DNA of 64,000 bases from Mucilaginibacter glaciei. GTDB taxonomy: Bacteria > Bacteroidota > Bacteroidia > Sphingobacteriales > Sphingobacteriaceae. Made by a program: the position numbers and the translations under genes. The stretch lies in NCBI RefSeq assembly GCF_014773245.1, contig NZ_JACWMX010000007.1, forward strand, positions 62,001 to 126,000, given 5' to 3'. Below are positions 11,687 through 32,083 of the stretch, piece after piece. Below the pieces are notes generated by a model. The model saw only the letters and a list, made by a program, of their open reading frames with translations. It did not search any database and was not told where the DNA came from. Positions within the stretch are counted from its first letter, which is position 1. Each line of letters begins with the position of its first letter.

Positions 11687-11783
11687 GACTTTAAATGTGA
11701 GATCAGTCGAATTTTAAGTTTCTTGTCTCAAATCTAACACCTCATATTTCAGGTCTTCCAAATAAATACTAATTTCGTTGGCA

Positions 11784-12806
11784 ATGAATGAAAATCTTGA
11801 CCCCGACCGGGAAAACCTCTCTGCTGCCGAACGTGATATAGAAAAAGTGTTGCGCCCACAGGCATTTGAAGATTTTACCGGCCAGCATAAAATATTAGCC
11901 AACCTGCGCATATTTGTACAGGCAGCGCGCCAGCGTGGCGAGGCGCTTGATCATGTGCTGTTGCACGGCCCTCCGGGTTTAGGTAAAACTACCCTATCGC
12001 ACATCATCGCCAATGAAATGGGTGTAGGTATCAAAATCACATCCGGCCCGGTATTAGATAAACCAGGCGATCTGGCAGGCCTACTGACCAATCTGGAAAC
12101 CGGCGATATCCTTTTTATTGACGAGATACACCGTTTAAGCCCGCTGGTTGAAGAGTATCTTTATTCGGCAATGGAGGATTTTAAGATAGATATCATGCTG
12201 GAAAGTGGACCTAACGCTCGCTCTGTACAGATCTCGCTTAACCCCTTTACCCTCGTGGGTGCAACTACCCGTTCGGGTTTACTAACAGCACCGCTGCGTG
12301 CGCGCTTTGGCATCAATAGCCGCCTGGAATATTACGACGCAAAATTATTAACTACTATTGTATTACGGTCGGCAGCTATCTTGCGTACACCTATCAGCGA
12401 CGAGGGTGCTTATGAGATTGCGCGCCGCAGCCGTGGTACGCCACGTATTGCTAATGCTTTGCTACGCCGTACCCGCGATTTTGCCCAGATAAAAGGCGAT
12501 GGTAATATTGATACTGCCATCGCAAAATATGCTTTGAACGCCCTGAATGTGGATGAACACGGACTGGACGAGATGGATAATAAGATCCTCAGCACAATCA
12601 TCGATAAATTCAAGGGTGGACCTGTAGGTTTAAAAACAATTGCTACAGCAGTTGGCGAAGAAGAAGGAACGATTGAAGAAGTTTACGAACCATTTTTAAT
12701 ACAAGAAGGCTTTTTAATGCGCACGGCACGCGGCCGCGAAGCTACCGAAAGCGCGTACAGGCACTTAGGTAAGATAAAATTGGGAGGCAATCCGTCGTTA
12801 TTTTAA
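11784..12806 (+). CDS. ruvB: Holliday junction branch migration helicase RuvB
   Basis: A 340-residue AAA+ protein of standard length. Seen: [11 protein letters not shown], Walker [21 protein letters not shown], Walker [10 protein letters not shown], sensor GATTRSGLL, the PLRARFG arginine finger region, [11 protein letters not shown], and the winged-helix end with [17 protein letters not shown] and [13 protein letters not shown]. It drives branch migration with RuvA during recombination. ATG 11784 ([10 protein letters not shown]) is chosen; an in-frame TTG six bases earlier is possible but unlikely. Confidence 0.97.
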
Positions 12807-12914: not shown

Positions 12915-12922
12915 TATTTTTG
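12915..12922 (+). promoter_or_regulatory. Candidate -7 box of the ECF sigma gene
   Basis: TATTTTTG matches the Bacteroidota -7 consensus TAnnTTTG exactly and lies about 52 bases before the sigma factor ATG. A convincing -33 TTTG at the usual distance is not visible, so only half of the promoter is supported. Confidence 0.35.
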
Positions 12923-12973
12923 GCTTGCAACTTCTGCATTTTTTGCTGTACTTGCATTCACCAAATACTACCT

Positions 12974-13561
12974 ATGTCTGAGTTGGTTTTACCTTGCGAA
13001 AAAGAGTTGCTTTTGCAGGTGGCCCGTGGTGATGAGCATGCTTTCAGTTTGCTTTTCAACACCTACCACCATCATTTAGGTACCCATATTTTCCGGATCA
13101 CCGATTCGTTAGAACTTGCCGAAGAAGTGGTACAGGATGCATTTTTAAAGATCTGGCTTAACCGCGAAACACTTACCTCTGTAAATAATTTTAAGGCTTA
13201 CTTATTTGTGGTTTCCAAAAATCACGCGCTAAACTGTTTACGCAAATTAGCTAAGGAGCGCATAGTTCAAAAAAGTATTGAGAATATTGAGTTAATTTCA
13301 AATACGCCCGAAGTAATTGAGAATAACGATTATTATAACTTGCTTGACGAGGCTATAGACCACCTGCCGCCGCAGCAACAAAAGGTTTACCTGTTAAGCC
13401 GTCATGACAGGTTAAAGTATGATGAGATAGCCAGCAAAATGGGCATCTCACGCGAAACCGTTAAAAAATATTTGCAGGTAGCTACACACTCTATTACCAA
13501 CTTTGTACAGGCAAACCACAATGCCGCGGTGATAATTTTGGTTGCCGGAATATTTTTTTAA
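12974..13561 (+). CDS. ECF sigma-70 factor of a SusCD regulatory system
   Basis: A 195-residue sigma factor. Region 2 carries FNTYHHHLGTHIFRITDSLELAEEVVQDAFLKIW in pieces, with the SVNNFKAYLFVVSKNHALN segment. Region 4 has the helix-turn-helix LPPQQQKVYLLSRHD to YDEIASKMGISRETVKKYL. A hydrophobic tail (AAVIILVAGIFF) ends the protein, as often in this Bacteroidota ECF group. ATG 12974 (MSELVLPCEK) is preferred to an upstream TTG. The fecR gene follows after about 100 bases, then susC with an STN domain: the classic sigma / anti-sigma / TonB-transducer arrangement. Confidence 0.92.
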   Translation: MSELVLPCEKELLLQVARGDEHAFSLLFNTYHHHLGTHIFRITDSLELAEEVVQDAFLKIWLNRETLTSVNNFKAYLFVVSKNHALNCLRKLAKERIVQKSIENIELISNTPEVIENNDYYNLLDEAIDHLPPQQQKVYLLSRHDRLKYDEIASKMGISRETVKKYLQVATHSITNFVQANHNAAVIILVAGIFF

Positions 13562-13662: not shown

Positions 13663-14868
13663 ATGGACACATCCCGATCAAGGTTATCGTACCTTTTTAA
13701 CTGCTATTACAGCAAAACGGCCACTCTGCAGGAGCGCGACGAACTTTTTGCTTTAATAGCAGCCGGGAAAAAAGATGATGCACTATCTGAACTCATCCGC
13801 ACCGCCTGGGACGACCTCCATTTAACTGCCCCGTTGTTTACCACTAACCAAACAGATCAAATTCTTCAAAATATTTTAACTGCTGCAAAACCTGTTGGTA
13901 ATATACCTAACGCAAGGCCACATCCTACCTTTCTCCTTTGGACCAAACTTGCTGCGGCGGCTATAGTTCTTTTCTTTTTAAGTTTTGGAGCTTATCTATA
14001 TCTGTATCAAACAAAAGCACCCGTCAAAACCCTTGTAGCCAAAAATAAAGTAGCACTGCATGATGCCCTGCCGGGTAGCAGTAAAGCGCTGTTAACCCTT
14101 GCCAACGGCAATACCATTATATTGGATAATGCTAAAAACGGCACACTGGCTAAACAAGGCAATACATTGGTTAACAAAACCGATGATGGCAAACTGGTTT
14201 ACAACCTATCCAATATTGGCGATAAAGACGCTGCCGTATCTATCAATACCATAACAACCCCACGTGGTGGTGAGTACCAGATTATTTTACCCGATGGTAC
14301 CAAAGTTTGGCTGAATGCTGCATCTTCATTAAAATTCCCTACCCGGTTTACAGGAAATTCCCGCGATGTTGAGATTACCGGAGAGGCATACTTCGAAGTA
14401 ACCAAGAACAAATTAATGCCCTTTAAAGTAAAAACCAACCGCGCAGAGATTGAGGTTTTGGGAACCCATTTTAACGTAATGGCTTATGACGACGAAAGCC
14501 TGATGAAAACAACCTTATTGGAGGGTGCCGTAAATATAAAAAGTGGCACATCAACCTACAAGTTAAAACCCGGCGAGCAGGCACAGGTTAACGCGACCGG
14601 CAATACCAACGTAACCAATAATATTGACGTTGACGATGAAGTTGCGTGGAAGAACGGCATATTTCAGTTTCGTGATGCGGGTATAGATGTGATATTGCGC
14701 CAGGCATCTCGCTGGTATGATATCGATATCACCTACAAAGGAAAGCTAACGACGAAGGAATTAAATGGAAGGATATCCCGCAACGTAAAAGCGTCGGCAT
14801 TATTAAGCATGCTAAACTATAGTGGCGCAAACCTGCATATTGAAGGTAAGCATATCATTGTAGAATAA
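13663..14868 (+). CDS. FecR-family anti-sigma factor
   Basis: A 401-residue protein: an N-terminal cytoplasmic sigma-binding region (residues 1-85), a single membrane helix near residues 90-112 (AAAAIVLFFLSFGAYLYLY), then a periplasmic FecR domain with TPRGGEYQIILPDGTKVWLN, SSLKFPTRF, TGEAYFEVTK, LGTHFNVMAY and a C-terminal DUF4974 secretin/TonB-like segment (FRDAGIDVILRQASRWYDID). It holds the ECF sigma factor until the STN domain of the outer-membrane SusC signals substrate. It lies directly between sigma factor and susC, so the partner assignment is strong. Confidence 0.93.
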   Translation: MDTSRSRLSYLFNCYYSKTATLQERDELFALIAAGKKDDALSELIRTAWDDLHLTAPLFTTNQTDQILQNILTAAKPVGNIPNARPHPTFLLWTKLAAAAIVLFFLSFGAYLYLYQTKAPVKTLVAKNKVALHDALPGSSKALLTLANGNTIILDNAKNGTLAKQGNTLVNKTDDGKLVYNLSNIGDKDAAVSINTITTPRGGEYQIILPDGTKVWLNAASSLKFPTRFTGNSRDVEITGEAYFEVTKNKLMPFKVKTNRAEIEVLGTHFNVMAYDDESLMKTTLLEGAVNIKSGTSTYKLKPGEQAQVNATGNTNVTNNIDVDDEVAWKNGIFQFRDAGIDVILRQASRWYDIDITYKGKLTTKELNGRISRNVKASALLSMLNYSGANLHIEGKHIIVE

Positions 14869-15120: not shown

Positions 15121-18100
15121 ATGAATTTTAATTCTAAGACCGTGCCTGTGGTATGGTCTAAACTTTCCAAAATTATTTTGGTTATGAAACTCACTGCTAT
15201 TTTAATAATTGCAGCCCTCACAAACGTTAGCGCAAAAAGCTACAGCCAGGTGGTATCTCTCAAAGAACGGAACACATCTGTTGCTAAAGTTTTACGCCTG
15301 ATAGAGAAGCAAACAGGTTACCATTTCATGTATGACAAACGTGACATGTCAAAGGCAACCGCATTTAATATCGATGTTACCAACGTACCGTTAACCGATG
15401 CTTTAGATAAAGCATTTAAGGATCAGCCACTCACCTACAAAATTTTCGACGAAACCATCGTGGTTAAAAAGAAAGATGAGACCAGCACCACGCAGTTTGC
15501 GGCCGTTGATGTAACCGGAACAGTCACAGACGCTAAAGGCCCGCTGCCGGGTGTAAATGTAAAGTTAAAAGGTACCACAACAGGTATCACTACAGATGCT
15601 AATGGTAAATACAAGCTGACTTTACCTGACGGCAACGGAACATTGGTGTTTAGCTTTATTGGCTACACCACGCAGGAATTACCTGTTAGCGGCCGTACCA
15701 CAATTGATGTGGTAATGGCCGAAGTGCCAAAAGCACTTAACGAGGTAGTTGTAGTAGGTTACGGTACCCAAAAACGGGTAGACCTTACCGGTTCTGTAGG
15801 TAGCATTAGCGCAAAAACCCTACAGGAGCGCCCCCAAACCAACCTGGAACAAGAATTGGGTGGTAAAATTGCCGGTGTAAACGTATCATCAAACTCGGGC
15901 GAACCGGGTGGCGATACCAAGATCCGCATCCGTGGTTACAGCTCTATCAATACCAATACAGATCCTTTATATGTTGTGGACGGTATAGTGTGGACTGCAG
16001 GCGGTAACGCAATTAACCCTAACGATGTTGCCAGTATCGACGTACTGAAAGATGCTTCATCAACAGCCATTTACGGTACACGTGGTGCAAACGGTGTTAT
16101 TTTGGTAACCACCAAGCGTGGTGCTAAAAACCGCCCAAGTACAGTAAGCTATGATGCTTACGTAAGCGTGGGCCGTATGGCAAAAGAAATTCCGGTGCTC
16201 AATTCAAAGCAGTTTATGGCTATTGAAGATCAGGCATATGCCAACATCCAAAAATACGACCCTGCCGGATGGGCAGCCGGTAACTATGCCAGCCGTAACC
16301 CTGTACTGCAAAGAACAGCGTTGATAGGCAAGCTGTTTGATAGTAACCTTAACCCATTATACGATGTAGACTGGCAAAAGGCAACTACCCGCACGGCTTA
16401 CAGCCAAAACCATAACCTGTCAGTAACAGGCGGATCTGAGAATACTAATTTTGGTTTGTTCCTGAATTACGCGAACGATCAGGGTATCATCCTTAATAGT
16501 TCACTGCAACGCTACAACGCTCGTTTAACACTTGATAACCAGGTAAAACCATGGTTAAAAATTGGCGCTACACTAAACTATAACACACAAGACCAACGCT
16601 TAGGCAGCTATGGTACAGGCGGTAACAATATCCCGCGTACCATGATAGAGATGCCATCATTCATCCCTGTCAGATACCCTGATGGCACATACGGTAAAAG
16701 AACCGATTACCCTAACTTAGAGGGTGGCGACAACCCGGTTGCACAGGCTTTAGAAATTCAGCGCTTGGCGCGTGTGCGTGTATTTAGCGGTAATGGTTAT
16801 GCCACTATCAATTTGTTAAAAGGGCTGGAGTTTAAAACAGTAATAGGTGTTACTAATGCCGCTAACTACTACCCAAGCTCAAGCAGTGGTTTAGTAGGCG
16901 GCCCTACTGCCGATCAATCGTACAGCAGTGCTTCTATTAGTGAGAACAACAACACCTTCTGGCAATGGCAAAACTACTTTACCTACAACACCAAGTTTGA
17001 TAAACATACTTTAAACTTTGTAGTAGGTACAGAGCGTCAAAATTTCCAGCAGTTAAGTCTGGGGGCATCTACCCGCAGTTTGTCTGATAATTTTTATCAA
17101 TATTATAATTTAGGTGCAGGCGGTATTCCTGGCCAACCATCATCAGATTACACGGCATGGCAGCAACAATCCTACTACGGCCGTGTTAACTACAATTACA
17201 ACGAAAAATACTTGCTAACTTTTACAGGCCGTACAGATGGATCATCCCGTTTTGGTCAGAATGTTAAATATGGTTTCTTCCCATCTGCTGCGTTAGCCTG
17301 GAGGGTGTCTCAGGAAGATTTCCTGAAAAACAACAAAACTATATCTGATCTTAAGGTAAGGTTGAGTTATGGTTTAACAGGTAACTCAGAAATAGGTCAG
17401 TATCGTTCTTTAGCCAACATCAATACCACTAACTATGTGTTTGGCGGAACCCAGGCAATTGGCACCAACTTAACCAGCATTGGCAACCCGGATTTGCAAT
17501 GGGAAAAGACTGAAGAGTACGATTTAGGTGTATCATTCGGTTTATTTAACAACCGGGTTACCTTAGAAGCTGATGCTTATTTGAAGAAAACAAAGGCACT
17601 TTTGCTAAATGCTCCTTTACCTGAAACAAGCGGTTTTACCAGCGTGTTTAAAAACATAGGCCAGCTTGAAAACAAAGGTTTGGAGTTGACTATTAATACG
17701 GTAAATGTTAAAAGTGATAATTTCACCTGGAACTCATCTTTTAATATTTCTTTCTTAGCCAATAAAATCTTGGCATTAGGTTCAGCAAACGACGATATTT
17801 TCCTTGACCCCACGTTCCTCTCTCAGTTTAACCTGATGCGGGTTGGGCAACCGGCCGGCTCATTCTACGGTTACAAAGTGTTAGGCACCTGGGGTACTGC
17901 AGAAGCAGCACAGGCGGCAACTTATGGCTTGCTACCAGGCGATCTGAAGATACAGGACACCAATAATGATGGTAAAGTTTCTGCTGCTGATAAAATCATC
18001 CTGGGCAGGTCTATCCCTAAAGGTTACGGTACATTCAGTAATACGTTTACCTACAAAAATATTGATTTGGGTGTTGACTTGCAATTTAACTACGGCAACC

Positions 18101-18543
18101 AGATCATGAACTTAACGCAGCACTCTGCACAGGATCGTATTGGCCAGGCAAACAGCTATGCTACCGTATTAAACGCATGGACACCAACCAACCAAAACAC
18201 AAACATTGCAGAAAGCCGTCCGGCGTATGTGCGTTACCAAACAGAGATCTACTCTACCAAGGTGGAGAGTGGCAACTTCATCAGGGGCCGTGCTGTAACT
18301 TTGGGTTACAACTTTTCAGACAACCTGGTTAAAAGAATCAAGCTGAGCCGTTTAAGGCTTTACGTACAAGCTCAGAACCTATTTGTAATTACTAAATATT
18401 CAGGTTATGACCCAGAGGTTTCTACCTACAACGGTAACGTTGCTTTTAACCAAGGGGCACCGAGCAACTTTACCCAAAACATCCAATTCTTTGATTATCC
18501 AAAGCCAAGGGTATTCTTGTTGGGATTAAACGCAAGTTTTTAA
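15121..18543 (+). CDS. SusC/RagA-type TonB-dependent outer-membrane transporter with STN domain
   Basis: A 1140-residue protein. A long signal peptide (LTAILIIAALTNVSAKSYSQ) is followed by an STN domain (about residues 45-105, VAKVLRLIEKQTGYHFMYD). A carboxypeptidase-like beta-sandwich (about 130-205, VTGTVTDAKGPLPGVNV) comes next, then the TonB box region EVVVVGYGTQKR, the plug with IRIRGYSSIN and DPLYVVDG, and a 22-strand barrel ending in RVFLLGLNASF. It imports glycans with SusD as lid. The STN domain signals to FecR, which matches the upstream sigma/anti-sigma pair. The susD gene starts 21 bases downstream. Confidence 0.96.
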   Translation: MNFNSKTVPVVWSKLSKIILVMKLTAILIIAALTNVSAKSYSQVVSLKERNTSVAKVLRLIEKQTGYHFMYDKRDMSKATAFNIDVTNVPLTDALDKAFKDQPLTYKIFDETIVVKKKDETSTTQFAAVDVTGTVTDAKGPLPGVNVKLKGTTTGITTDANGKYKLTLPDGNGTLVFSFIGYTTQELPVSGRTTIDVVMAEVPKALNEVVVVGYGTQKRVDLTGSVGSISAKTLQERPQTNLEQELGGKIAGVNVSSNSGEPGGDTKIRIRGYSSINTNTDPLYVVDGIVWTAGGNAINPNDVASIDVLKDASSTAIYGTRGANGVILVTTKRGAKNRPSTVSYDAYVSVGRMAKEIPVLNSKQFMAIEDQAYANIQKYDPAGWAAGNYASRNPVLQRTALIGKLFDSNLNPLYDVDWQKATTRTAYSQNHNLSVTGGSENTNFGLFLNYANDQGIILNSSLQRYNARLTLDNQVKPWLKIGATLNYNTQDQRLGSYGTGGNNIPRTMIEMPSFIPVRYPDGTYGKRTDYPNLEGGDNPVAQALEIQRLARVRVFSGNGYATINLLKGLEFKTVIGVTNAANYYPSSSSGLVGGPTADQSYSSASISENNNTFWQWQNYFTYNTKFDKHTLNFVVGTERQNFQQLSLGASTRSLSDNFYQYYNLGAGGIPGQPSSDYTAWQQQSYYGRVNYNYNEKYLLTFTGRTDGSSRFGQNVKYGFFPSAALAWRVSQEDFLKNNKTISDLKVRLSYGLTGNSEIGQYRSLANINTTNYVFGGTQAIGTNLTSIGNPDLQWEKTEEYDLGVSFGLFNNRVTLEADAYLKKTKALLLNAPLPETSGFTSVFKNIGQLENKGLELTINTVNVKSDNFTWNSSFNISFLANKILALGSANDDIFLDPTFLSQFNLMRVGQPAGSFYGYKVLGTWGTAEAAQAATYGLLPGDLKIQDTNNDGKVSAADKIILGRSIPKGYGTFSNTFTYKNIDLGVDLQFNYGNQIMNLTQHSAQDRIGQANSYATVLNAWTPTNQNTNIAESRPAYVRYQTEIYSTKVESGNFIRGRAVTLGYNFSDNLVKRIKLSRLRLYVQAQNLFVITKYSGYDPEVSTYNGNVAFNQGAPSNFTQNIQFFDYPKPRVFLLGLNASF

Positions 18544-18564: not shown

Positions 18565-20064
18565 ATGAAATTTAACTTAAAAAAATACGGGATCGGTTCT
18601 TTAATACTGATCCTCACGATATGCTCAAGCGGCTGTAAAAAATATCTTGACGAGAAGAACAACAGTAATTTCGTTAAAGACACCTACTTTCAGAATGCTT
18701 CGCAGGCACGGACGTTTGTCAATGGTATTTACACCTCTTTATACTTTTTTCAAAACGGCGATGCCTACGGCGAAAGCCCGTTTATCACCATTGAATTATT
18801 TGCCGGCCACGCTACCTCATTGGGTCAAAGCGTTAACAATGGCAATGTAATCAACCAGCGTACAGATGCTGTTAACCCCGGTTTTGAAACCGTTTGGCGC
18901 GGCAGCTATAACGCTATAGCCAATGCTAACCTGGCTTTAGAGCAAATACCAAATGTGGCAATGCCTGATGCGGACAAGAAAAAGCTTTTAGGCGAAGTTT
19001 ACTTTCTGCGGGCATTCTTTTACTACCACCTGGTTAGACTGTATGGCGATGTACCATTAGTTACAAAAACGGTTGGTGTATCTGATGCTGACCTTTATCC
19101 TTCACGCAGCCCGGTTGCTTCTGTTTATGACCTGATCATAGCCGATTTAACTTTAGCACAGGCCTCTGGTTTAGCAGCTACCGACCAAACCGGTAAAGTA
19201 TCATTAGGCGCTGTAAACACTTTATTAGCAAGTGTATATTTAACTACTGCTGGTTTCCCGTTGAATAAAACGGAGAACTACGCTAAGGCGGCCGCTACGG
19301 CAGAGTTGGTGTTACCATCTTATACCTTGTTTGACAATTACCTTTACCTGCATGACAATGCACATAAAAACCAGGGCGAACTAATTTTTCAGAGCCAGTA
19401 TTTGGTGGGTGTTCGTGATAACGCCATTCCTCAGCTTACGGTACCGTTTAATCTACCGGTAGGTGCTTACGGCGATCACCTTGGTGCAATGATTCCGACA
19501 AACCAGTTTTTTAATAGCTATGAAACAGGCGACTTACGCACACAGGAGCGCCAATTCTACTTCTCCAGCTATCCCCAAAATGGCGCACCAGCTAATACTA
19601 TAACATTTGGTGTACACGCGCTGTACAAATACTTTCACCTGGAAAGTGCTTTGGGTAATGGTATCAGCGATGAAAACTGGACCTTCTTAAGGCTACCCGA
19701 AGCTATGCTGATCTATGCAGAAGCAAGTAACGAGGTTGGCGGTCCTAATACAAAGGCATTAGCGCAAGTTAATGCGATCAGGACGAGGGCTAAATTATCT
19801 TCACTTACTGCCGCTTTAACTAAAGATCAGTTCCGTGAAGCAATCTGGAAAGAGCGTTACCACGAACTGGCCTACGAAGACAAAGCTTATTTCGACATAC
19901 AGCGTACCCACAAAGCATACAATGTGGTTAACAACACCTTTGGCGAGGCAACAACTACGCCTACCGAGCAGGGTGTAACCTTCAAGTCACAATATTATTT
20001 GTGGCCGGTACCGCAACGCGAGATCAACACCAACAAAAACCTCACACAAAATACAGGTTGGTAA
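18565..20064 (+). CDS. SusD/RagB-type glycan-binding outer-membrane lipoprotein
   Basis: A 499-residue lipoprotein; the signal peptide ends at Cys24 (CSSGCKKYLDEK). It has the helical TPR-like SusD core with YNAIANANLALEQI, AEVYFLRAFFYYHLVRLYGDVPL-type motif (here LGEVYFLRAFFYYHL), and the C-terminal WKERYHELAYEDKAYFDIQR and YLWPVPQREI. It covers the SusC pore and binds the glycan at the cell surface. Substrate cannot be read from sequence; the downstream GH92 gene points to alpha-mannosidic glycans. A terminator follows. Confidence 0.95.
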   Translation: MKFNLKKYGIGSLILILTICSSGCKKYLDEKNNSNFVKDTYFQNASQARTFVNGIYTSLYFFQNGDAYGESPFITIELFAGHATSLGQSVNNGNVINQRTDAVNPGFETVWRGSYNAIANANLALEQIPNVAMPDADKKKLLGEVYFLRAFFYYHLVRLYGDVPLVTKTVGVSDADLYPSRSPVASVYDLIIADLTLAQASGLAATDQTGKVSLGAVNTLLASVYLTTAGFPLNKTENYAKAAATAELVLPSYTLFDNYLYLHDNAHKNQGELIFQSQYLVGVRDNAIPQLTVPFNLPVGAYGDHLGAMIPTNQFFNSYETGDLRTQERQFYFSSYPQNGAPANTITFGVHALYKYFHLESALGNGISDENWTFLRLPEAMLIYAEASNEVGGPNTKALAQVNAIRTRAKLSSLTAALTKDQFREAIWKERYHELAYEDKAYFDIQRTHKAYNVVNNTFGEATTTPTEQGVTFKSQYYLWPVPQREINTNKNLTQNTGW

Positions 20065-20108: not shown

Positions 20109-20153
20109 TTTACGGTCGATTTGTATCTAAAATCAAGTTTAAGTTCCTTTTCT

Positions 20154-22436
20154 ATGAAAAAAAGTTTCCTTTTTTTATCCGCTATTCTATTTTCGGCGCA
20201 AACCTTCGCACAAAACGTAAACAAAGTAACTGATCCTGTAGAATGGATTAACCCTTTAATGGGCACTCAATCTAAATACGACCTGAGTAATGGTAACACC
20301 TACCCTGCCGTTGCCGTGCCATGGGGCATGAATATGTGGACACCCACAACCGGCAAAATGGGCGATGGATGGCAATACACCTATGATGCTTATAAAATAA
20401 ACGGCTTCAAACAAACCCACCAGCCTTCCCCCTGGATGAATGATTACGGTCAGTTTGCCATAATGCCGGTGACCGGTAAATTAAAGGTATCGCAAAACGG
20501 CCGCGCCAGCTGGTTCTCGCACAAGGCCGAGGTTGCTAAACCGTATTATTACAGCGTTTACCTGGCTGATCATGATGTAACCACTGAAATGACCGCTACC
20601 GAACGTGCGGCACAATTCAGGTTCACCTACCCAAAAGCCGATAGCTCATTTATCATTGTGGATGCTTTTGATAAAGGCTCTTATATAAAAGTTATCCCGG
20701 GCGAGCGCAAAATTGTAGGTTACTCTACCAAATACGCCCGCGGTCCGCTAAAGAATTTCAAGAATTACTTTGTGATCTATGTAGATAAACCGATCAGTAC
20801 ATCACAGGTTTATAACGATACAACCGTAGCAAATGGCCAGGAACTAAACGCCAAACATGTAATGGCTGTGATAGGTTTTAAAACCGCAAAAGGAGAAAAG
20901 GTGCATTTGCGCGTTGCCTCATCATTCATTAGCGAAGCGCAGGCCGAATTGAACCTGAAAAGGGAAGTTGGTACCGATAGCTTTGATATCACTGAACAAA
21001 AAGCAAAAACTATCTGGAACAATACCTTAAACCGCTTACAGGTTGAAGGTGGCAGTATTGATCAGATACGAACATTTTACTCCTGCCTTTACCGGATGCT
21101 TTTCTTCCCAAACAAGGTGTACGAGCTTGACGCTAAAAATCAGCCCGTACATTGGAGCGCGCAAAACGGCGAAATTATGCCGGGTTACAAATTTGCAGGA
21201 ACAGGCTTTTGGGATACCTTTCGTGCACTTTACCCTTTCCTGAATTTGGTATACCCCTCTGTCAACAAGGAAATGCAGATGGGTTTGGTTAACGACTATA
21301 AAGAAGGTGGCTGGCTGCCGGAATGGAGCAGCCCGGGTTACTCTAATGTGATGGTGGGTAATAACTCAGCTTCAGTAGTTTCTGATGCTTATTTGAAAGG
21401 TGGCCGCGGTTACGATATCAGTACCCTTTACACGGCTTTAACGCACGGCGCCAATAACGACGGCCCAAATGCAACAGGCCGCGATGGGGTAGATTATTAT
21501 AATAAATTAGGCTATGTTCCTTACGATGTAAAGATTAACGAGAACGCTGCCCGTACTTTGGAGTACGCTTATGACGATTTCACCATCTACAAATTAGGAA
21601 AAGCTTTAGGTCGCCCTGCTGCAGAAACCGACGTTTACAAAAAACGCAGCATGAACTACAAAAACCTGTTCGATCCATCAACCGGTTGGATGCGTGGAAA
21701 GAATAAGGACGGCCAGTTTCAAAGCCCGTTCAGTCCGTATAAATGGGGTGATGCCTTTACCGAAGGTAACAGTATGCATTATACCTGGAGCGTTTTCCAC
21801 GATATACAAGGTTTGATTGACCTGATGGGTGGCAAACCTAAATTTGTAGCCAAGTTGGATTCTATCTGGACGTTACCGCCAACATTTGATGATAGCTATT
21901 ACGGCGAAGTGATTCACGAGATCCGTGAGATGCAGATAGCCGGCATGGGCCAGTATGCGCACGGTAACCAGCCTATCCAACACATGACCTACCTATACAA
22001 TTATGCAGGCGAGCCATGGAAAACCCAGCTGCATGTACGCGATGTAATGAACAAATTATACAAACCGACACCTGATGGTTACTGTGGCGATGAAGATAAC
22101 GGCCAAACATCAGCCTGGTATGTTTTTTCGGCAATGGGCTTTTATCCGGTAACCCCGGCCAGCGATCAGTATGTGTTAGGTACTCCCCTGTTTAAAAAGA
22201 TCACCCTCAATTTAGAGAATGGCAAAAAGGTGGTGATCAACGCACCAAACAACAGTGCCGATAATAAATACATTAACACTTTGGATGTAAACGGCAAACC
22301 TTACAATTATACCTGGCTAAGCCACAAGGCCTTACAACAAGGCGAAGTGCTCAACTTTAATATGTCGGCAGCGCCAAATAAAACAAGAGGTGTTAAAGCG
22401 GCAGATGTACCCTATTCACTATCATTAGAGAAATAA
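20154..22436 (+). CDS. GH92 family alpha-mannosidase
   Basis: A 760-residue exported enzyme with a Sec signal peptide (FLFLSAILFSAQTFAQ). The GH92 signature is clear: WINPLMGTQSKYDLSNGNTY, PAVAVPWGMNMWTP, FKQTHQPSPWMNDYGQF, then FTEGNSMHYTW near residue 534 (conserved general-acid Glu) and GDEDNGQTSAWYVFSAMGFY near 644 (the Asp pair that activates water). GH92 enzymes are calcium-dependent inverting exo-alpha-mannosidases, mostly alpha-1,2, acting on N-glycans and fungal mannan. The start is ATG 20154, giving a proper signal peptide. The next gene begins four bases after the stop. Confidence 0.95.
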   Translation: MKKSFLFLSAILFSAQTFAQNVNKVTDPVEWINPLMGTQSKYDLSNGNTYPAVAVPWGMNMWTPTTGKMGDGWQYTYDAYKINGFKQTHQPSPWMNDYGQFAIMPVTGKLKVSQNGRASWFSHKAEVAKPYYYSVYLADHDVTTEMTATERAAQFRFTYPKADSSFIIVDAFDKGSYIKVIPGERKIVGYSTKYARGPLKNFKNYFVIYVDKPISTSQVYNDTTVANGQELNAKHVMAVIGFKTAKGEKVHLRVASSFISEAQAELNLKREVGTDSFDITEQKAKTIWNNTLNRLQVEGGSIDQIRTFYSCLYRMLFFPNKVYELDAKNQPVHWSAQNGEIMPGYKFAGTGFWDTFRALYPFLNLVYPSVNKEMQMGLVNDYKEGGWLPEWSSPGYSNVMVGNNSASVVSDAYLKGGRGYDISTLYTALTHGANNDGPNATGRDGVDYYNKLGYVPYDVKINENAARTLEYAYDDFTIYKLGKALGRPAAETDVYKKRSMNYKNLFDPSTGWMRGKNKDGQFQSPFSPYKWGDAFTEGNSMHYTWSVFHDIQGLIDLMGGKPKFVAKLDSIWTLPPTFDDSYYGEVIHEIREMQIAGMGQYAHGNQPIQHMTYLYNYAGEPWKTQLHVRDVMNKLYKPTPDGYCGDEDNGQTSAWYVFSAMGFYPVTPASDQYVLGTPLFKKITLNLENGKKVVINAPNNSADNKYINTLDVNGKPYNYTWLSHKALQQGEVLNFNMSAAPNKTRGVKAADVPYSLSLEK

Positions 22437-22440
22437 GATA

Positions 22441-23607
22441 ATGAAACTTTTAAGGTTATTATCAATCTTGCTGCTAACATCGGGTGCTCTTTCATCAGCT
22501 TCAATAGCCCAAACACATCCTGCGCTTAAAGCAGACACGGCTACGCTAACCCCTGATATGTCCAAAAAACAAGTTAAGCCGGTGATGCTGAGTAACCTTA
22601 AAATAGGAATAGCAGGCCTGTCACATGACCATGTACACAATGTACTTAACCAGTACAAGCAGGGCCTGGTAAATATTGTAGGTATTGCCGAGGCGAACAA
22701 AGAACTCCGCGCGCGTTTTCAAAAGCAATACCAGTTACCCGATTCATTATTTTATGACGACCTTAAAAAAATGGCATCCGAAAGAAAGCCCGACGCTGTG
22801 TTGGGCTTTAACCCGGTTGCAAAACATATTGATGTAGTAGAGATCTGCGCACCATTGGGGATCTCGGTTATGGTCGAAAAACCGCTCGCCGCTACCCTGA
22901 CCCAGGCCAGGCGCATGGAGTTTTTAGCACTTAAATATTATATTAAACTGCTTACCAATTACGAAACTACCTGGTACCCATCCTACCAGCATGTTTATAA
23001 CATGGCTGCTAACGATAGCTTGGGCACTATTCGTAAAATTGTAGTACATGACGGCCACCAAGGGCCAAAAGAGATTAAATGCAGTAAAGAGTTTGTAAGC
23101 TGGCTAACCGACCCTGAACTGAACGGCGGAGGCGCCCTGATTGACTTTGGCTGCTACGGTGCTGACTTGATGACCTGGTTGATGGAAGGCCAGCGACCTA
23201 TAGCTGTAACGGCTGTTGCCCGCCACTTTAAGTTGCAGGCATACCCGAAGGTTGAGGATGATGTAAGTGTAATTATTGAATATCCAACGGCAACCGGTAT
23301 AATAGAAGCCTCCTGGAACTGGCCTTTTTCTATCAAAGATCTGGAAGTTTTTGGTGATGACGGCTACATGCACGCATTAGATAACACAAACATTGTATCC
23401 CGATTAAATCAAAATGTATCTACCCTAAAAGTGGCCAATAATATTATCCCGCCAATGGATAACCCGATCAGTTACCTGCAAACCGTACTGCAAAACCGGC
23501 TGGTCGGGCTAACCGACAGATCATCGCTCAAATACAATATGATGGTAATGGTTATATTAGATGCGGCCAAAAGATCTATCGCCGAGGGTAAGCGCATCGT
23601 GCTTTAA
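22441..23607 (+). CDS. Exported Gfo/Idh/MocA-family oxidoreductase-like protein
   Basis: A 388-residue protein with a Sec signal peptide (LLSILLLTSGALSSASIAQ). After a linker of about 30 residues the Rossmann domain starts at LKIGIAGLSHDHVHNVL, where the usual GxGxxG reads GIAGLSH. VMVEKPLAATLTQA carries the catalytic-type EKP lysine, and GGGALIDFGCYGADLMTWL is the C-terminal-domain signature. Family members oxidise or epimerise sugars with tightly bound NAD(P). Export to the periplasm, where free NAD is scarce, implies a retained cofactor or a redox-neutral glycosidase-like reaction as in GH109. It is coupled to the GH92 gene (4-base gap), so its substrate is probably a product of that enzyme. 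Confidence 0.85.
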   Translation: MKLLRLLSILLLTSGALSSASIAQTHPALKADTATLTPDMSKKQVKPVMLSNLKIGIAGLSHDHVHNVLNQYKQGLVNIVGIAEANKELRARFQKQYQLPDSLFYDDLKKMASERKPDAVLGFNPVAKHIDVVEICAPLGISVMVEKPLAATLTQARRMEFLALKYYIKLLTNYETTWYPSYQHVYNMAANDSLGTIRKIVVHDGHQGPKEIKCSKEFVSWLTDPELNGGGALIDFGCYGADLMTWLMEGQRPIAVTAVARHFKLQAYPKVEDDVSVIIEYPTATGIIEASWNWPFSIKDLEVFGDDGYMHALDNTNIVSRLNQNVSTLKVANNIIPPMDNPISYLQTVLQNRLVGLTDRSSLKYNMMVMVILDAAKRSIAEGKRIVL

Positions 23608-23704: not shown

Positions 23705-24610
23705 ATGTTAAAGCAAATTCTTGCCCTCTCTTTACTTGGCGTTGTGGGCATAACATCATGCCAAAGCAAGCCATCAGATAAAAACACATCCGCTAAAACT
23801 GATTCTTCGGCTCCGGCTTCTACCCCTGCTGTTGCACGGTTAGAGAATGTTAAAATAGATAGGGCCGCTATTTTGGCGCGTAAACAGGTGCCGATTGTTT
23901 GTTATCACCAAATCCGCGACTGGAAATCAACCGATTCAAAAGGGGCTAAAGATTACATCGTACAAATACAGGCCTTTAAGGATCATATGAAGATGCTGGC
24001 TGATAGTGGTTATCACACCATCCTGCCCGATCAGTTGTATAACTATTTAACTACCGGTGCGCCTTTACCTAAAAAACCCATCATGCTAACGTTCGATGAC
24101 ACCGACCTTGATCAGTTTACCATCGCAGCACCCGAGATGAAGAAATATGGTTTTAAAGGTGTTTTCTTTGTCATGACGGTATCTATCGGCCGCCCTCATT
24201 ACATGACTGCCGAGATGGTTAAAAAGCTATCTGACGATGGTCAAGTAATTGCCAGTCATACTTGGGATCATCATCGCGTTGATAAATATTCGCACACATC
24301 CAGCCTGAAGATCATTGGTAAAAACGGTAAAATTACCGAAAGGCCAGTTGACGATTGGGTTACCCAGATTGATAAACCAACTAAAAAACTGGAAGAGATA
24401 ACCGGTAAAAAGATAGAATATTTCGCTTATCCATTTGGGATCTGGAAAAAACCGGTATTGCCAGAGATTCAGCAACGCGGTTTTAAAATAGCTTTCCAGT
24501 TAGCTGATAAACGCGACCCGGACTATCCGCTGATGACCGTTCGCCGCATACTGGACAGCGGTTACTGGACAACCAAAACATTCGCTAATAGCATGCGGAA
24601 TAGCTTTTAA
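23705..24610 (+). CDS. Polysaccharide deacetylase (NodB fold) lipoprotein
   Basis: A 301-residue lipoprotein with lipid attachment at Cys19 (GITSCQSK) and a Ser/Thr/Pro-rich linker. The NodB domain has VPIVCYHQI, the metal-binding TFDDTD (near residue 130), SHTWDHHRVD (HxxxH-type motif, near 184), YFAYPFGIWKKP and a C-terminal RILDSGYW. Such enzymes are metal-dependent and remove N- or O-acetyl groups from glycans. It sits at the end of the mannosidase locus but has its own candidate promoter, so a role in deacetylating the same glycan is an inference. A strong terminator follows. Confidence 0.88.
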   Translation: MLKQILALSLLGVVGITSCQSKPSDKNTSAKTDSSAPASTPAVARLENVKIDRAAILARKQVPIVCYHQIRDWKSTDSKGAKDYIVQIQAFKDHMKMLADSGYHTILPDQLYNYLTTGAPLPKKPIMLTFDDTDLDQFTIAAPEMKKYGFKGVFFVMTVSIGRPHYMTAEMVKKLSDDGQVIASHTWDHHRVDKYSHTSSLKIIGKNGKITERPVDDWVTQIDKPTKKLEEITGKKIEYFAYPFGIWKKPVLPEIQQRGFKIAFQLADKRDPDYPLMTVRRILDSGYWTTKTFANSMRNSF

Positions 24611-28071: not shown

Positions 28072-28190
28072 GGTTACAGATCAGGGATGCAGTTGGCAAA
28101 GGTCTAAAAAATAATCGGAAGTATATTTTCTCATCCAAAGTATTGGTAAAATTATTAAATTCATACCCGCCTGATAACACGATAAAATCT

Positions 28191-30170
28191 ATGATAAAAC
28201 CTTTACTTGCCGCATTATTCATCTCCCTGATCACGACGGCAGCATCCGCGCAAAACTTTCCGTATGGTGAATACAGCCCGAAAGAAATAGATATGAAACG
28301 CTACGATGCAGACACGAGCGCACACGCAGTGGTGTTGAATGAATACGGAACGTCAAGCATGAATGTGGTAACCGATGACCAAATTAAAATTGTATATGAG
28401 TACCATGTTAAAATCAAAATTTTAGATAGCAAAGGCTTTGATAAAGGCAATGTGGTGATCCCCTTTTATACTGCCGGTAACGAAAACTGGGAGGATCTTG
28501 ATGAAATTAAGGGCGTTACTACCTATATAGACGACTATGGCAACCCAAAATCTGCAGATCTGGATGTGACCAAAATTGCTACCGTGCGCGAAAACAAGTA
28601 CTGGAGCTATAAAAAATTCGCCCTGCCTAACCTGCGGGCTGGCGCAATCATCGAGTATAAATACAGGCTGGCTACTCCATTTTGGGACAAATTCCAACCC
28701 TGGCATTTTCAGGATGATATACCGAAGATAAAATCGACTTATGAGGTGCATATCCCCGCTTTTTGGAGCTATAATGTTTTATTAAGGGGCCAGTTAAGGC
28801 TTACCAGAAATACCTCGGAAGTGGAGAGAGCTTGCTTTACCCGGCACGGCGCCACATGCGACTGCTCGCACATCACCTACGCAATGGATGATATCCCCGC
28901 TTTTGTGGAAGAGGATTACATGACATCGCCAAAAAACTTTCTATCGGCTATTTATTTTAACCTTTCTGAGTACACTAACCTGACCAGCGGTGCTAAAATT
29001 ATGGTAACCAAAGATTGGAAGGATATTGATTACAACCTTAAACATGCAGATTACTTTGGCTCGCAATTACGCAAAAAGGATGCGGTCAAACCTTATATCG
29101 CCGTGGCGATAGCGGGCATAACGGAAGATTTGGACAAGGCGAAGGCCGTTTATACCTACATCCAAAAAAATATTAAATGGAATGGCATTAATTCGCGCGG
29201 AAGCGACGATGGCATCCGTAAAGCGCTCGATAACCATACAGGTAATGCTGCCGATGTAAACCTGACTTTGGTAACCGCCTTAAATTCGGCCAATATAGCT
29301 ACCGAAGCGGTACTGTTGTCTACACGGTCAAACGGACTGATCAACAAACTTTACCCGGTAGAAAATGAGTTTAATTATGTAATTGCACGTGCCACCATAG
29401 GCGGCAAAGCTTATTTTTTAGATGCTACGGACCCGGAACTGTCATTTGGTATGCTCCCCTTAAAATGTATTAACGACCAGGGCCGTGTAATGAGCCTGGA
29501 TAAGCCGTCATACTGGATAGACTTGGTTGTTGATCAAAAAAAGAAAAGCAGCAGCACTTTAAACCTTACGCTGCAAAGCGACGGCAAACTAAAGGGAACT
29601 ATTATCACCTACTCCAGCGGATATCAGGCTTATGAAAAACGCAAAGCCATTAAAAAATTCAATACTATTGACGAGTACGTAGAAAATCTTGACGAACGCT
29701 TAACTAAGATCAGAATCCTTACTTCTTCTATCAATAACCTCGACAGCCTGGATATGCCGCTGAGAGAGGTTTACGAGGTAGAAATAAACGCGTTTGACAA
29801 CCTTAACCACAACCGCTTATCATTTAACCCCTTCATATTTGAAAGGCTAACCGTTAACCCGTTTAAACTGACCGATCGTAATTACCCGGTAGACTGGGGT
29901 ATGCCTGCCGATAGCCGCTTTACATTGATGGTGCACTTGCCGGCCGATTATGTCATAGAAAATTCGTTGCAACCTATAGCGATAGGCTTACCCAACAAAG
30001 GTGGTAGTTTTGTCACCGATTTCCAGGGTGAGGGCAATGAGTTTAAATTTTCTAACCTTACCCAGTTCACAAAATCGGTGTATCAGCCCGAGGAATACCC
30101 CTACCTGAAAGAATTCTATAACAAAATGATAGCGGCAGGCAAAACCGAGATTGTATTCAGAAAAAAATAA
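28191..30170 (+). CDS. DUF3857/transglutaminase-like secreted protein lacking catalytic Cys and His
   Basis: A 659-residue exported protein (signal peptide LLAALFISLITTAASAQ). DUF3857 occupies the N-terminal half (IKIVYEYHVKIKILDSKG, LPNLRAGAIIEYKYRL). A transglutaminase-like domain follows (AVYTYIQKNIKWNG, then NHTGNAADVNL). Where active members have GDC, this protein has GNA (Ala353). Where they have the NHV/DHV histidine it reads FNYVIARA. The Asp of FLDATDPE is kept. It is therefore probably a non-catalytic member. A beta-rich C-terminal domain follows (DUF2569/3858-like). ATG 28191 gives the signal peptide. The stop overlaps the next ATG (TAATG), so the two proteins are made together. 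Confidence 0.85.
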   Translation: MIKPLLAALFISLITTAASAQNFPYGEYSPKEIDMKRYDADTSAHAVVLNEYGTSSMNVVTDDQIKIVYEYHVKIKILDSKGFDKGNVVIPFYTAGNENWEDLDEIKGVTTYIDDYGNPKSADLDVTKIATVRENKYWSYKKFALPNLRAGAIIEYKYRLATPFWDKFQPWHFQDDIPKIKSTYEVHIPAFWSYNVLLRGQLRLTRNTSEVERACFTRHGATCDCSHITYAMDDIPAFVEEDYMTSPKNFLSAIYFNLSEYTNLTSGAKIMVTKDWKDIDYNLKHADYFGSQLRKKDAVKPYIAVAIAGITEDLDKAKAVYTYIQKNIKWNGINSRGSDDGIRKALDNHTGNAADVNLTLVTALNSANIATEAVLLSTRSNGLINKLYPVENEFNYVIARATIGGKAYFLDATDPELSFGMLPLKCINDQGRVMSLDKPSYWIDLVVDQKKKSSSTLNLTLQSDGKLKGTIITYSSGYQAYEKRKAIKKFNTIDEYVENLDERLTKIRILTSSINNLDSLDMPLREVYEVEINAFDNLNHNRLSFNPFIFERLTVNPFKLTDRNYPVDWGMPADSRFTLMVHLPADYVIENSLQPIAIGLPNKGGSFVTDFQGEGNEFKFSNLTQFTKSVYQPEEYPYLKEFYNKMIAAGKTEIVFRKK

Positions 30171-32083
30171 TGAGAATAATTTATACACTGTTTTTTTTAC
30201 TGTTGCTGAATACCATTGTGCTGGCGCAGGCAGATTATAAGGCAGACCGCATCTCAAAAGATTTGCTGCCGTATGCCAGTGCGGTTATCCGCAATAAAGA
30301 CGTGACCATCGAGGTTAAAGATCTTGACAATACCATTTACCACATAAAAACGGCCATCACCGTATTGAATAAAAATGGCGATGATATAGCACATATAGTG
30401 GTGTGGCACAATAAAAGCAACACCATCCGGTCCATAAAGGGAAGCATTTATAACGAATTTGGCCAACCTATCGGAAAGTTTACCGAGCGGGATTTTGCTG
30501 ACGTAAATGCAGCGAATGACAACTTAACGCTTTTTCAGGATTCACGCGTGAAGCATTACAGCCCATCTACAGGCTCCTACCCTTATACTATAGAGTACGA
30601 ATACGAGATGAGGTCAAAACAATCGCTCAATTTTAATGATTGGGAACCTAACGAAACTGTAGGCCTGGCGGTAGAGAAAAGCTCTTTTACGTTTATATGC
30701 AAACCCGATTTTAAGATCCGCCACAAAGAGATCAACATGCCAACAAGCGTAAGCATGGGTACTAATAAAGATGGCTTTAAAACTTATTACTGGCAGGTGG
30801 CTAATTTAAAAGCTATAAAAGATGAGCCTTACAGCCCCAATGCTGACAAATATCTAAGTATCGTTAAAATAGCACCGGAGAATTTTAAATACGAAGGTAT
30901 TTCCGGATCGTTCACTAACTGGCAAGAATTGGGTAAGTGGAACTATGATAAGCTACTGGCTAACCGCCAGGCCCTGCCCACCACGACTATACAACAAGTA
31001 AATAAGCTTATCGCTGGTATCACCGATAACAAGTTGAAAGCCAAAAAGATATATGAATACATGCAAAATAAAACACGCTACATAAGCGTGCAGGTAGGGA
31101 TTGGCGGCTACCAACCTTTTTTAGCAGCAGATGTTGACAACCTAAACTACGGCGACTGTAAAGGGTTGGTTAACTACACTCAGGCTTTATTGAAAGCGGC
31201 AGATATAGATTCGTGGTATTGCGTGGTAAAATCGGGCAGCCGTAAAGTGAGTATGATGGCCGATTTTGCCAGCATGAACCAGGGCGACCATGTCATACTT
31301 TGCCTGCCGCTAAAAAACGACACCACATTTCTGGAATGCACCAGCCAAAAAATGCCGTTTGGCTTTTTGAGCGATTTTACAGACGACCGCACCGTATTGG
31401 CCTGCACCCCTACCGGCGGCAAACTAATGCGCACCCCAAAGTATACGGCCAAAGTGAACACACAGGCACGCAAGGCCGGCTTTACTATCGATAACAAAGG
31501 CGAACTTACCGGCAATGTAACTACAGTTTTTAAAGGCACCCAGTTTGATAACCATGAAGCCCTTGTAGACGAGCCACTTAAGGAGCAGGTAAAGATTTTA
31601 CAAAAACGCTACAACGCCATCAGCAATCTGGACATAGAGAAATGCAGCTATGTACAAGATAAACAGCAACTACCTGTAGCGACCGAGAATATTAAATTAA
31701 ATGCACGCGATTTTGCGACTACAGAGAATGGCAAATTATACTTCTCCATCAACCCGCTTAACCGTAGCATCCGCCCTCTGCGCGACGTACGCAGCCGAAC
31801 CACCCCGTTATATATTAATAGCGGATACACCGACGAGGATGAGATAACCTTTACCATCCCGCCGGGTTATAAAAGCGATCGTACACCGTTGGATGTAGCT
31901 ATTGAAAAACCGTTTGGTACTTTTAAAGCCAGTATGGTGTTAAATGGCGATCAACTTGTTTTTAAACGCACATTGCAAATAATTGAGGGTAATTACAGCA
32001 AAGAGGCCTACCATGAATTGGTTGATTTTTACCAGGCCATAGTAGAGGCCGATAATTACAACGTTGCACTGGTGAAGAATTGA
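30170..32083 (+). CDS. DUF3857/transglutaminase-like secreted protein with catalytic Cys
   Basis: A 637-residue exported protein (signal peptide LFFLLLLNTIVLAQA). It has the same layout as the gene before it: DUF3857 (KTAITVLNKNGDDIAHIV, YPYTIEYEYEM), a transglutaminase-like domain with KIYEYMQNKTRYISVQ, GDCKGLVNY (Cys330), GDHVILCLPL and FLECTSQKMPFG, then a beta-rich tail. Cys and His are present; the third position is Glu instead of Asp. Members are thought to act on peptides or proteins in the periplasm; substrate unknown. It starts inside the stop codon of its inactive relative, so a heteromeric pair is likely. Confidence 0.85.
   Translation: MRIIYTLFFLLLLNTIVLAQADYKADRISKDLLPYASAVIRNKDVTIEVKDLDNTIYHIKTAITVLNKNGDDIAHIVVWHNKSNTIRSIKGSIYNEFGQPIGKFTERDFADVNAANDNLTLFQDSRVKHYSPSTGSYPYTIEYEYEMRSKQSLNFNDWEPNETVGLAVEKSSFTFICKPDFKIRHKEINMPTSVSMGTNKDGFKTYYWQVANLKAIKDEPYSPNADKYLSIVKIAPENFKYEGISGSFTNWQELGKWNYDKLLANRQALPTTTIQQVNKLIAGITDNKLKAKKIYEYMQNKTRYISVQVGIGGYQPFLAADVDNLNYGDCKGLVNYTQALLKAADIDSWYCVVKSGSRKVSMMADFASMNQGDHVILCLPLKNDTTFLECTSQKMPFGFLSDFTDDRTVLACTPTGGKLMRTPKYTAKVNTQARKAGFTIDNKGELTGNVTTVFKGTQFDNHEALVDEPLKEQVKILQKRYNAISNLDIEKCSYVQDKQQLPVATENIKLNARDFATTENGKLYFSINPLNRSIRPLRDVRSRTTPLYINSGYTDEDEITFTIPPGYKSDRTPLDVAIEKPFGTFKASMVLNGDQLVFKRTLQIIEGNYSKEAYHELVDFYQAIVEADNYNVALVKN

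Follow-up and report, generated by a model that had tools for sequence, protein, structure and literature searches.

An exported Gfo/Idh/MocA subfamily of Bacteroidota with an altered dinucleotide loop: a putative periplasmic sugar oxidoreductase

The window analyzed in this study (the whole 64,000-nucleotide stretch of the Mucilaginibacter glaciei contig NZ_JACWMX010000007.1, positions 62,001 to 126,000) carries a run of same-strand genes around an open reading frame for an exported protein of the Gfo/Idh/MocA type (the subject protein; its gene is referred to below as gfo):

11778..12806, forward strand: RuvB, an ancestral-looking upstream neighbour of gfo and not part of its function
12920..13561, forward strand: ECF sigma factor
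13663..14868, forward strand: FecR-type anti-sigma factor
15121..18543, forward strand: SusC-like TonB-dependent receptor with an STN domain (Pfam)
18565..20064, forward strand: SusD-like protein (Pfam)
20121..22436, forward strand: GH92 protein, judged by eye to be exported; likelier start an ATG at 20154 (leader MKKSFLFLSAILFSAQTFAQ)
22441..23607, forward strand: exported Gfo/Idh/MocA oxidoreductase, 388 aa with an ATG start (ORF list, Pfam, predicted model)
23705..24610, forward strand: polysaccharide deacetylase, with a lipobox by eye; nearest to the PgaB/IcaB models, below their cut-offs

A SnoaL-like protein is also encoded downstream of gfo. The SusC/SusD pair, a CAZyme and a regulator together place this locus among the polysaccharide utilisation loci. 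The GH92 protein matches 2wzs/2wvx (putative alpha-1,2-mannosidase; an entry that we take to be BT3990) with 1102 bits over residues 39-770 of 771. Its stop codon ends at 22436 and gfo begins at 22441, so that the four-base gap reported in an earlier sequence-only reading of this DNA is accurate. Further along the window (28143-32083) lie two tandem genes for large proteins (675 and 637 aa) with leader-like N-termini and a one-base overlap.

The subject protein is a member of the Gfo/Idh/MocA superfamily, with Pfam matches to PF01408 (51.2 bits, cut-off 24), PF22725 (72.3, cut-off 27) and PF02894 (36.9, cut-off 22.9), all above the curated cut-offs. It consists of a Sec-type leader (approximately residues 1-23, the cleavage site near residue 23 being placed by eye), a linker (approximately 24-50), a Rossmann domain (approximately 53-170) and a C-terminal alpha/beta domain extending to residue 388. 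The leader, MKLLRLLSILLLTSGALSSASIAQ, contains no Cys lipobox by eye. The predicted model has a mean pLDDT of 91.9 and a pTM of 0.85, with residues 29-37 falling below pLDDT 50. The window is part of a 4.6 Mb genome (G000) with close named relatives in Mucilaginibacter (loci L031-L034, 71-73% protein identity); the loci from named Mucilaginibacter are not copies of the unnamed ones, the best stretches reaching approximately 81% DNA identity.

A protein search of the taxonomic family detected the subfamily in 83 out of 201 genomes (counted by hand; best E-value 4.5e-46 or lower), matches elsewhere being at 5e-19 or weaker except for fragments in G150, itself one of the 83. By hand count, 23 out of 35 sampled genomes of the genus carry the gene, including that of the window. 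A profile search across the phylum (395 genomes, threshold 1e-60) returned 55 genomes from 31 of 170 genera, with a single match in 54 of them and two matches in G540. Reading 93 stretches with wide flanks yielded 90 family ORFs (no intact ORF in L137, L042 and L151), and 88 of these were aligned, L124 and L080 being excluded as partial; pairwise identity in this alignment ranges from 37 to 94%. One locus (L150) contains a tandem pair of family genes, of 413 and 368 aa as called. A literature text search, which leaves most subscription journals beyond its reach, returned no description of the subfamily, and it is apparently unstudied though widespread in Bacteroidota.

The alignment defines a set of signature positions, given here with their coordinates in the window:

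22615..22635, forward strand: altered dinucleotide loop, residues 59-65 (GLSHDHV); positions 62 and 64 are His in 88/88 and position 61 is Gly in 0/88
22690..22692, forward strand: E84, just past the second beta strand (78-83), aligned with Ser64 (mature numbering) of glucose-fructose oxidoreductase (GFOR) from Zymomonas mobilis
22876..22884, forward strand: catalytic lysine motif E146-K147-P148, 88/88
23053..23067, forward strand: loop G205-H206-x-G208-P209, fixed in the subfamily, 88/88
23143..23160, forward strand: catalytic Asp/Tyr motif D235-F-G-C238-Y239-G, 88/88

The classical GxGxxG dinucleotide motif, which is typical rather than required (GFOR departs from it too), is absent, its second glycine being found in none of the 88 rows and replaced at position 61 by T, S, N, V, A or H. 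The changed cofactor motif of the sequence-only reading (GIAGLSH) is therefore real: it forms part of GIAGLSHDH, the core of which is fixed across the subfamily, just as the EKP lysine singled out in that reading corresponds to the invariant K147. Invariant residues include, among others, H62, H64, H129, E146-K147-P148, E175, W178, Y179, G205-H206, G208-P209, D235-F236-G237-C238-Y239-G240-A241, D273, W292, W294 and K299. Of these, H206 is a possible acid/base candidate, and the GFOR (1h6a) residues aligned with K147, D235 and Y239 are K181, D265 and Y269. Since this Lys-Asp-Tyr set and many other residues stay invariant over 37-94% pairwise identity, a catalytic function can be argued.

An acidic residue past the second strand is the usual choice of NAD-binding Rossmann folds, and the S64D substitution in GFOR favours NAD. 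This variant (PDB 1evj) carries Asp at the position aligned with E84. In the subfamily all 88 rows have an acidic residue at position 84 (86 with Glu, 2 with Asp), which argues for a preference for NAD(H), the cofactor predicted here for its members.

The profile, Foldseek and VIA lists are all headed by GFOR and by the aldose-aldose oxidoreductase (AAOR) of Caulobacter crescentus. The VIA fold matches include 5a03 (AAOR; Z 36.0, rmsd 2.6, 323 aligned), 1h6d (GFOR; Z 35.3, rmsd 4.6, 342 aligned) and 8qc2 (a GH188 NAD-dependent sulfoquinovosidase; Z 34.3, rmsd 2.4, 323 aligned), and levoglucosan dehydrogenase, GenD2 and the NAD-dependent sulfoquinovosidases are within 2 Z units of the top match. 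As the 50 fold matches listed all lie between Z 31.7 and 36.0, a fold search does not separate the rival functions considered below; the absence of a GH109 chain among these 50 excludes nothing. In a single-sequence search GenD2 (6nor) came first at 2e-12, ahead of AAOR. The best NCBIfam match (D-xylose 1-dehydrogenase Gfo6, 66.8 bits) is far under its cut-off of 350, and the second (UDP-GlcNAc 3-dehydrogenase, 64.0 bits), also far under its cut-off, is equal to it in quality. The position of the catalytic Tyr (Y239) is occupied by His in GenD2 (by alignment) as well as in 8tdf/8tdh (by a shared D-x-x-x-H motif), structures that presumably represent BT2158 of Bacteroides thetaiotaomicron. That Tyr-type members oxidize C1 and His-type members ring carbons is a generalisation from few cases.

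Export appears to be a general feature of the subfamily. Using a hydropathy rule of our own rather than SignalP, leaders could be placed for 87 of the 90 family ORFs; all 87 have a hydrophobic segment, 77 have K/R close ahead of it and 5 show a lipobox-like pattern. This agrees with the clear Sec signal claimed from the sequence of the subject protein. A Tat screen, likewise based on our own pattern and not on a trained predictor, covered 88 leaders (the 90 less L123 and L080, a set slightly different from the 88 alignment rows) and gave a Tat-like pattern in 2 and any RR pair in 7, none of them in the subject protein. In L043 the Tat-like pattern with its RR lies ahead of a likelier start, and the L139 leader, with an RR outside our pattern, may be Tat-like. 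Nine loci contain another, Tat-type Gfo gene (the Tat pattern was detected in 7 of these 9 proteins and recognized by eye in the other two); 8 of the 9 retain a stretch resembling GxGxxG when a loose pattern is applied. For the one in L139, no solved relative was found at 1e-15.

The Tat route lets a folded, cofactor-loaded protein cross the membrane, and NAD is not normally free outside the cytoplasm. With Sec-type leaders, a member of the subfamily would cross unfolded and then either find NAD outside or be without it. Of all the findings, apparent Sec-type export in combination with a fixed HxH loop interests us most; it is also a puzzle, as the loading of a cofactor before export is left unexplained. 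One answer, improbable in our estimation, would be a Sec-exported Rossmann family that takes up NAD outside the cytoplasm and locks it in, its invariant GLxHxH-type loop standing in for GxGxxG, and that performs closed-cycle sugar redox chemistry (or, with H206 and without GGHGG, a new NAD-dependent way of cleaving or epimerising glycosides) in the periplasm of many Bacteroidota.

The sequence-only reading had coupled the subject protein to the mannosidase, suggesting that it acts on GH92 products. Within five genes of gfo, a GH92 gene occurs in 12 of the 90 wide-flank loci, in fact always directly upstream: in 11 loci of the window's clade and in L140 of another taxonomic family. Hence GH92 adjacency is not a property of the subfamily. 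Among the 23 genomes of the genus that carry gfo, 15 have GH92 upstream (a count that draws on the 30 best places in the taxonomic-family search, read with short flanks), 7 have ruvB directly upstream without GH92, and one (L015) has neither; ruvB is also directly upstream in L028/L056, both from a single genome (G100) of another genus. The search for the window-type GH92 and RuvB covered 60 short loci and could have overlooked a GH92 that is strongly diverged. In L043, L044, L051 and L055 GH92 alone stands between ruvB and gfo, and the window has GH92 there together with the sigma, anti-sigma and Sus genes; in the former four loci and in L034, GH92 and gfo occur together with no adjacent SusC/SusD pair. 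Since the ruvB slot lacks GH92 in some genomes and holds it in others, the ruvB-gfo order looks older and GH92 a newcomer, with loss of GH92 in some genomes also possible. The deacetylase cluster is found near the family gene in 13 of the 90 loci, including two (L047 and L052) that lack GH92, and may be an older partner than GH92.

A reading that we hold somewhat less likely than not is that GH92 came to lie beside gfo merely through local insertion, without any substrate common to the two proteins. This is a question separate from that of the enzyme's chemistry. The empty ruvB slots (7 of 23 genomes, and L028/L056), the four loci with GH92 lying between ruvB and gfo, and the many loci with unrelated or opposite-strand neighbours speak for it. 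Against it, the pair is tight in the 11 wide-flank loci of the clade, ranging from an overlap (start codons being uncertain) to 21 bases, and a second pair exists in L140, where gfo lies 11 bases behind GH92, again after SusC and SusD. The L140 GH92 is only 35% identical to that of the window, and its gfo is far off on the tree, on a long end branch that makes its exact place unsure. On a quick-method tree of the 88 rows the GH92 label needs 4 changes, 3 of them forced by starred branches. Roughly estimated, chance alone would put a GH92 gene beside a given family gene in a few tenths of a percent of cases; over some 30 contexts this adds up to 5-10%, a suggestive figure rather than proof (calculated from 12 GH92 matches in an assumed 4,300 genes of G540 and from 31 synteny groups; these were built by single linkage, which merged some unrelated loci and makes the number of independent contexts rough). 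Overall, the mannosidase coupling is a real gene order in part of one genus and weak as functional evidence: of the proposed action on GH92 products, the local addition of GH92 in one genus takes away much, and the second, unrelated GH92-gfo pair gives something back.

Other neighbourhoods broaden the range of sugars. A GH43 gene is the immediate partner of the family gene in L126 (12-base gap), as is a GH28 gene in L050 (141 bases). These are the two glycoside hydrolases among ten neighbours covered in one Pfam scan, the other eight being of Nramp, aminotransferase, histidine kinase, RsmB, ADP-ribosylglycohydrolase, FG-GAP/UnbV and TonB-receptor types, and one without a family. Opposite-strand neighbours are common. 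Pfam was used to assign families to selected neighbours, covering 11 of 23 immediate same-strand partners, so that other glycan partners may be missed. The link to glycan breakdown thus recurs, loosely, across different sugars. GH43 and GH28 beside other members make a mannose-only role unlikely for the subfamily; in view of these, and because many loci have no glycan neighbours, such a role was dropped.

A different set of neighbours is associated with 3-keto sugars. In L122 a PF06439 (3-keto-disaccharide hydrolase) gene is followed by a Tat-type Gfo gene related to 8tdf (1.9e-45) and then by the family member; as called, these two gfo ORFs overlap. In L143, L144, L146, L147, L149 and L152 (one genome family; Pfam on L143 only) three Tat-type AP_endonuc_2-cluster genes and a Tat-type Gfo gene are upstream of the Sec-type member, and in the L035 or Aquirufa group (6 loci; Pfam on L035 only) an AP_endonuc_2-cluster gene with a leader follows 1-9 bases downstream. 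In the latter group (L035:32-12651 and the like loci L036-L039 and L041; Pfam again on L035 only) the family gene is itself part of a long one-strand cluster: TatD-like, UbiA prenyltransferase, DHQ-synthase-like and phosphodiesterase genes accompany it, and AP_endonuc_2, beta-helix and sulfatase genes come next. This cluster resembles what we take to be the ebo cluster; an ebo-like operon link was set aside because it was seen in one lineage only.

Taken together, the subfamily likely comprises exported, catalytic, sugar-directed proteins of the NAD type. The mechanism that we favour, as a putative assignment with a probability somewhat short of even, is that of a periplasmic, redox-neutral, GFOR/AAOR-like sugar oxidoreductase with a resident nicotinamide cofactor. 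One such cofactor, most likely NAD(H), would stay in the enzyme; one sugar, probably oxidized to a lactone at its anomeric carbon, would reduce it and another sugar would re-oxidize it, so that a soluble NAD pool would not be needed. Lys147, Asp235 and Tyr239 would constitute the catalytic set. The activity would be family-wide with broad or variable sugar use, free mannose being a presumable natural substrate where the GH92 gene has joined, in part of the window's genus. The Pfam, model, fold-match, alignment and conservation data agree with the resident-cofactor or redox-neutral reaction postulated from the sequence alone. In favour of the GFOR/AAOR-like mechanism are the first places of AAOR and GFOR in the profile and fold searches, the aligned triad with Tyr where GenD2 and 8tdf/8tdh have His, the behaviour of AAOR in yeast described below, the acidic residue at position 84, the Gfo6 match and the differing sugar types of the gene neighbours (GH92 in two unrelated pairs, GH43, GH28). 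On the other hand, identity to GFOR and AAOR is only about 20%, GenD2 leads the single-sequence search, other Gfo enzymes including the NAD-dependent sulfoquinovosidases score almost as high in the fold search, the second NCBIfam match equals the first, and the Tat export of GFOR and AAOR versus the Sec-type leaders here leaves cofactor loading unaccounted for.

The 3-keto-sugar neighbours point rather to C3 chemistry. In such a periplasmic 3-keto-glycoside route, which we consider unlikely though by no means negligible, the protein would oxidize glycosides at C3, or reduce a released 3-keto sugar, its partner being a PF06439 hydrolase or an eliminase of the AP_endonuc_2 type. The breakdown of glycans via 3-keto intermediates is reportedly the subject of a 2024 Nature paper. 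The gene orders of L122 and of the L143 and L035 groups fit this route, as do the matches in G000, 8 to PF06439 (with each tandem domain as a separate match) and 5 that are BT2158-like, all 5 short of the cut-off; PMC11300592 describes BT2158 as a periplasmic glycoside 3-dehydrogenase. The AP_endonuc_2 neighbours, however, need only 2 changes on the tree and the Tat-Gfo neighbours 4, some such neighbours are expected by chance given the many Gfo genes per genome, the catalytic residue is Tyr and not His, and the subject protein scores 21 bits against the 750 set for the BT2158 family.

An NAD-dependent glycosidase or epimerase in the style of GH109/GH188, acting by transient C3 oxidation with a new acid/base set such as H206, strikes us as doubtful. 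It would fit the GH188-like fold (8qc2) and the invariance of H206 (88/88), located past the first strand of the C-terminal domain in the region of Tyr226 or Glu163 in GH109/SqgA, a positional correspondence drawn from PMC10755693. The GGHGG loop, however, is present in 0 of the 88 rows, and past residue 206 no column has His in at least half of them; on these grounds membership in GH109 was dropped. The pocket of the GH188 enzyme SqgA comprises K107, H193, H321 and Y136; the Lys is present here, and His193 appears, from match coordinates only, to correspond to Y239, the Tyr shared with GFOR and AAOR. The GH109-type activity raised in the sequence-only reading is weakened accordingly. Least probable of all is a cofactor-free binding or sensing protein with a retained fold. 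The loss of the second GxGxxG glycine in all 88 rows and Sec-type export to a compartment where NAD is scarce would suit it, against which stand the invariant Lys, Asp and Tyr and the loss of the last glycine in GFOR too.

The significance of the subfamily lies in its presence in about one seventh of the Bacteroidota sample (55 out of 395 genomes), in its strict conservation and in its export-type leader. It renders testable the question of how a Rossmann enzyme sent out unfolded gains and keeps NAD, and it may add a new sugar-oxidizing step to glycan breakdown, beside GH92, GH43 and GH28 enzymes. The novelty is that of a variant, since periplasmic Gfo dehydrogenases are already represented by BT2158 (PMC11300592).

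Among known systems, GenD2 (6nor) is alike in its rank in the single-sequence search and in its fold score (Z 34.3); it differs in the His at the Tyr239 position and is not described as exported in the material examined. The GH188 sulfoquinovosidase (8qc2, 8qc3) and GH109 share the fold and the active-site lysine, whereas the subfamily lacks the GGHGG loop and has Tyr at the apparent catalytic His position. In AmGH109, according to PMC10755693, His404 is the base/acid for C3 and His259 the acid/base for the glycosidic bond; the corresponding residues of SqgA are His321 and His193. For the GGHGG loop as carrier of the GH109 acid/base we follow the title of Teze 2020, a reference in both PMC10628242 and PMC10755693. 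BT2158 is likewise a periplasmic Gfo/Idh/MocA sugar dehydrogenase from Bacteroidota (PMC11300592); it is distinguished by His versus Tyr in the catalytic motif (8tdf/8tdh) and by separate homologues in the source genome, and its family NF058561 was dropped as an assignment on the bit score given above.

Membership in GFOR/AAOR proper was also dropped, as the triad is present but Ser after the second strand and a Tat-type signal are not. The N-terminal arm of GFOR is ordered, whereas the linker of the subject protein is of low confidence in the model. GFOR (1h6d, 1ofg) further differs by 19-20% identity, by Ser64 in place of Glu/Asp and by Tat export; it resembles the subfamily in its aligned triad, in lacking the last glycine of the dinucleotide motif and, as stated in PMC4628093, in being periplasmic and needing no added cofactor. 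The same source assigns Tat export signals to both AAOR and GFOR (the GFOR leader having 52 aa) and reports that AAOR in yeast extracts formed xylitol from xylose without added cofactor, and that AAOR-making yeast gave xylonate and xylitol. AAOR (5a02/5a03) is set apart by approximately 20% identity, Ser at the E84 position, Gly at loop position 61 and its Tat signal; it is at the same time the best profile and structural match, and it has in common with the subfamily both the Lys-Asp-Tyr triad and an export signal.
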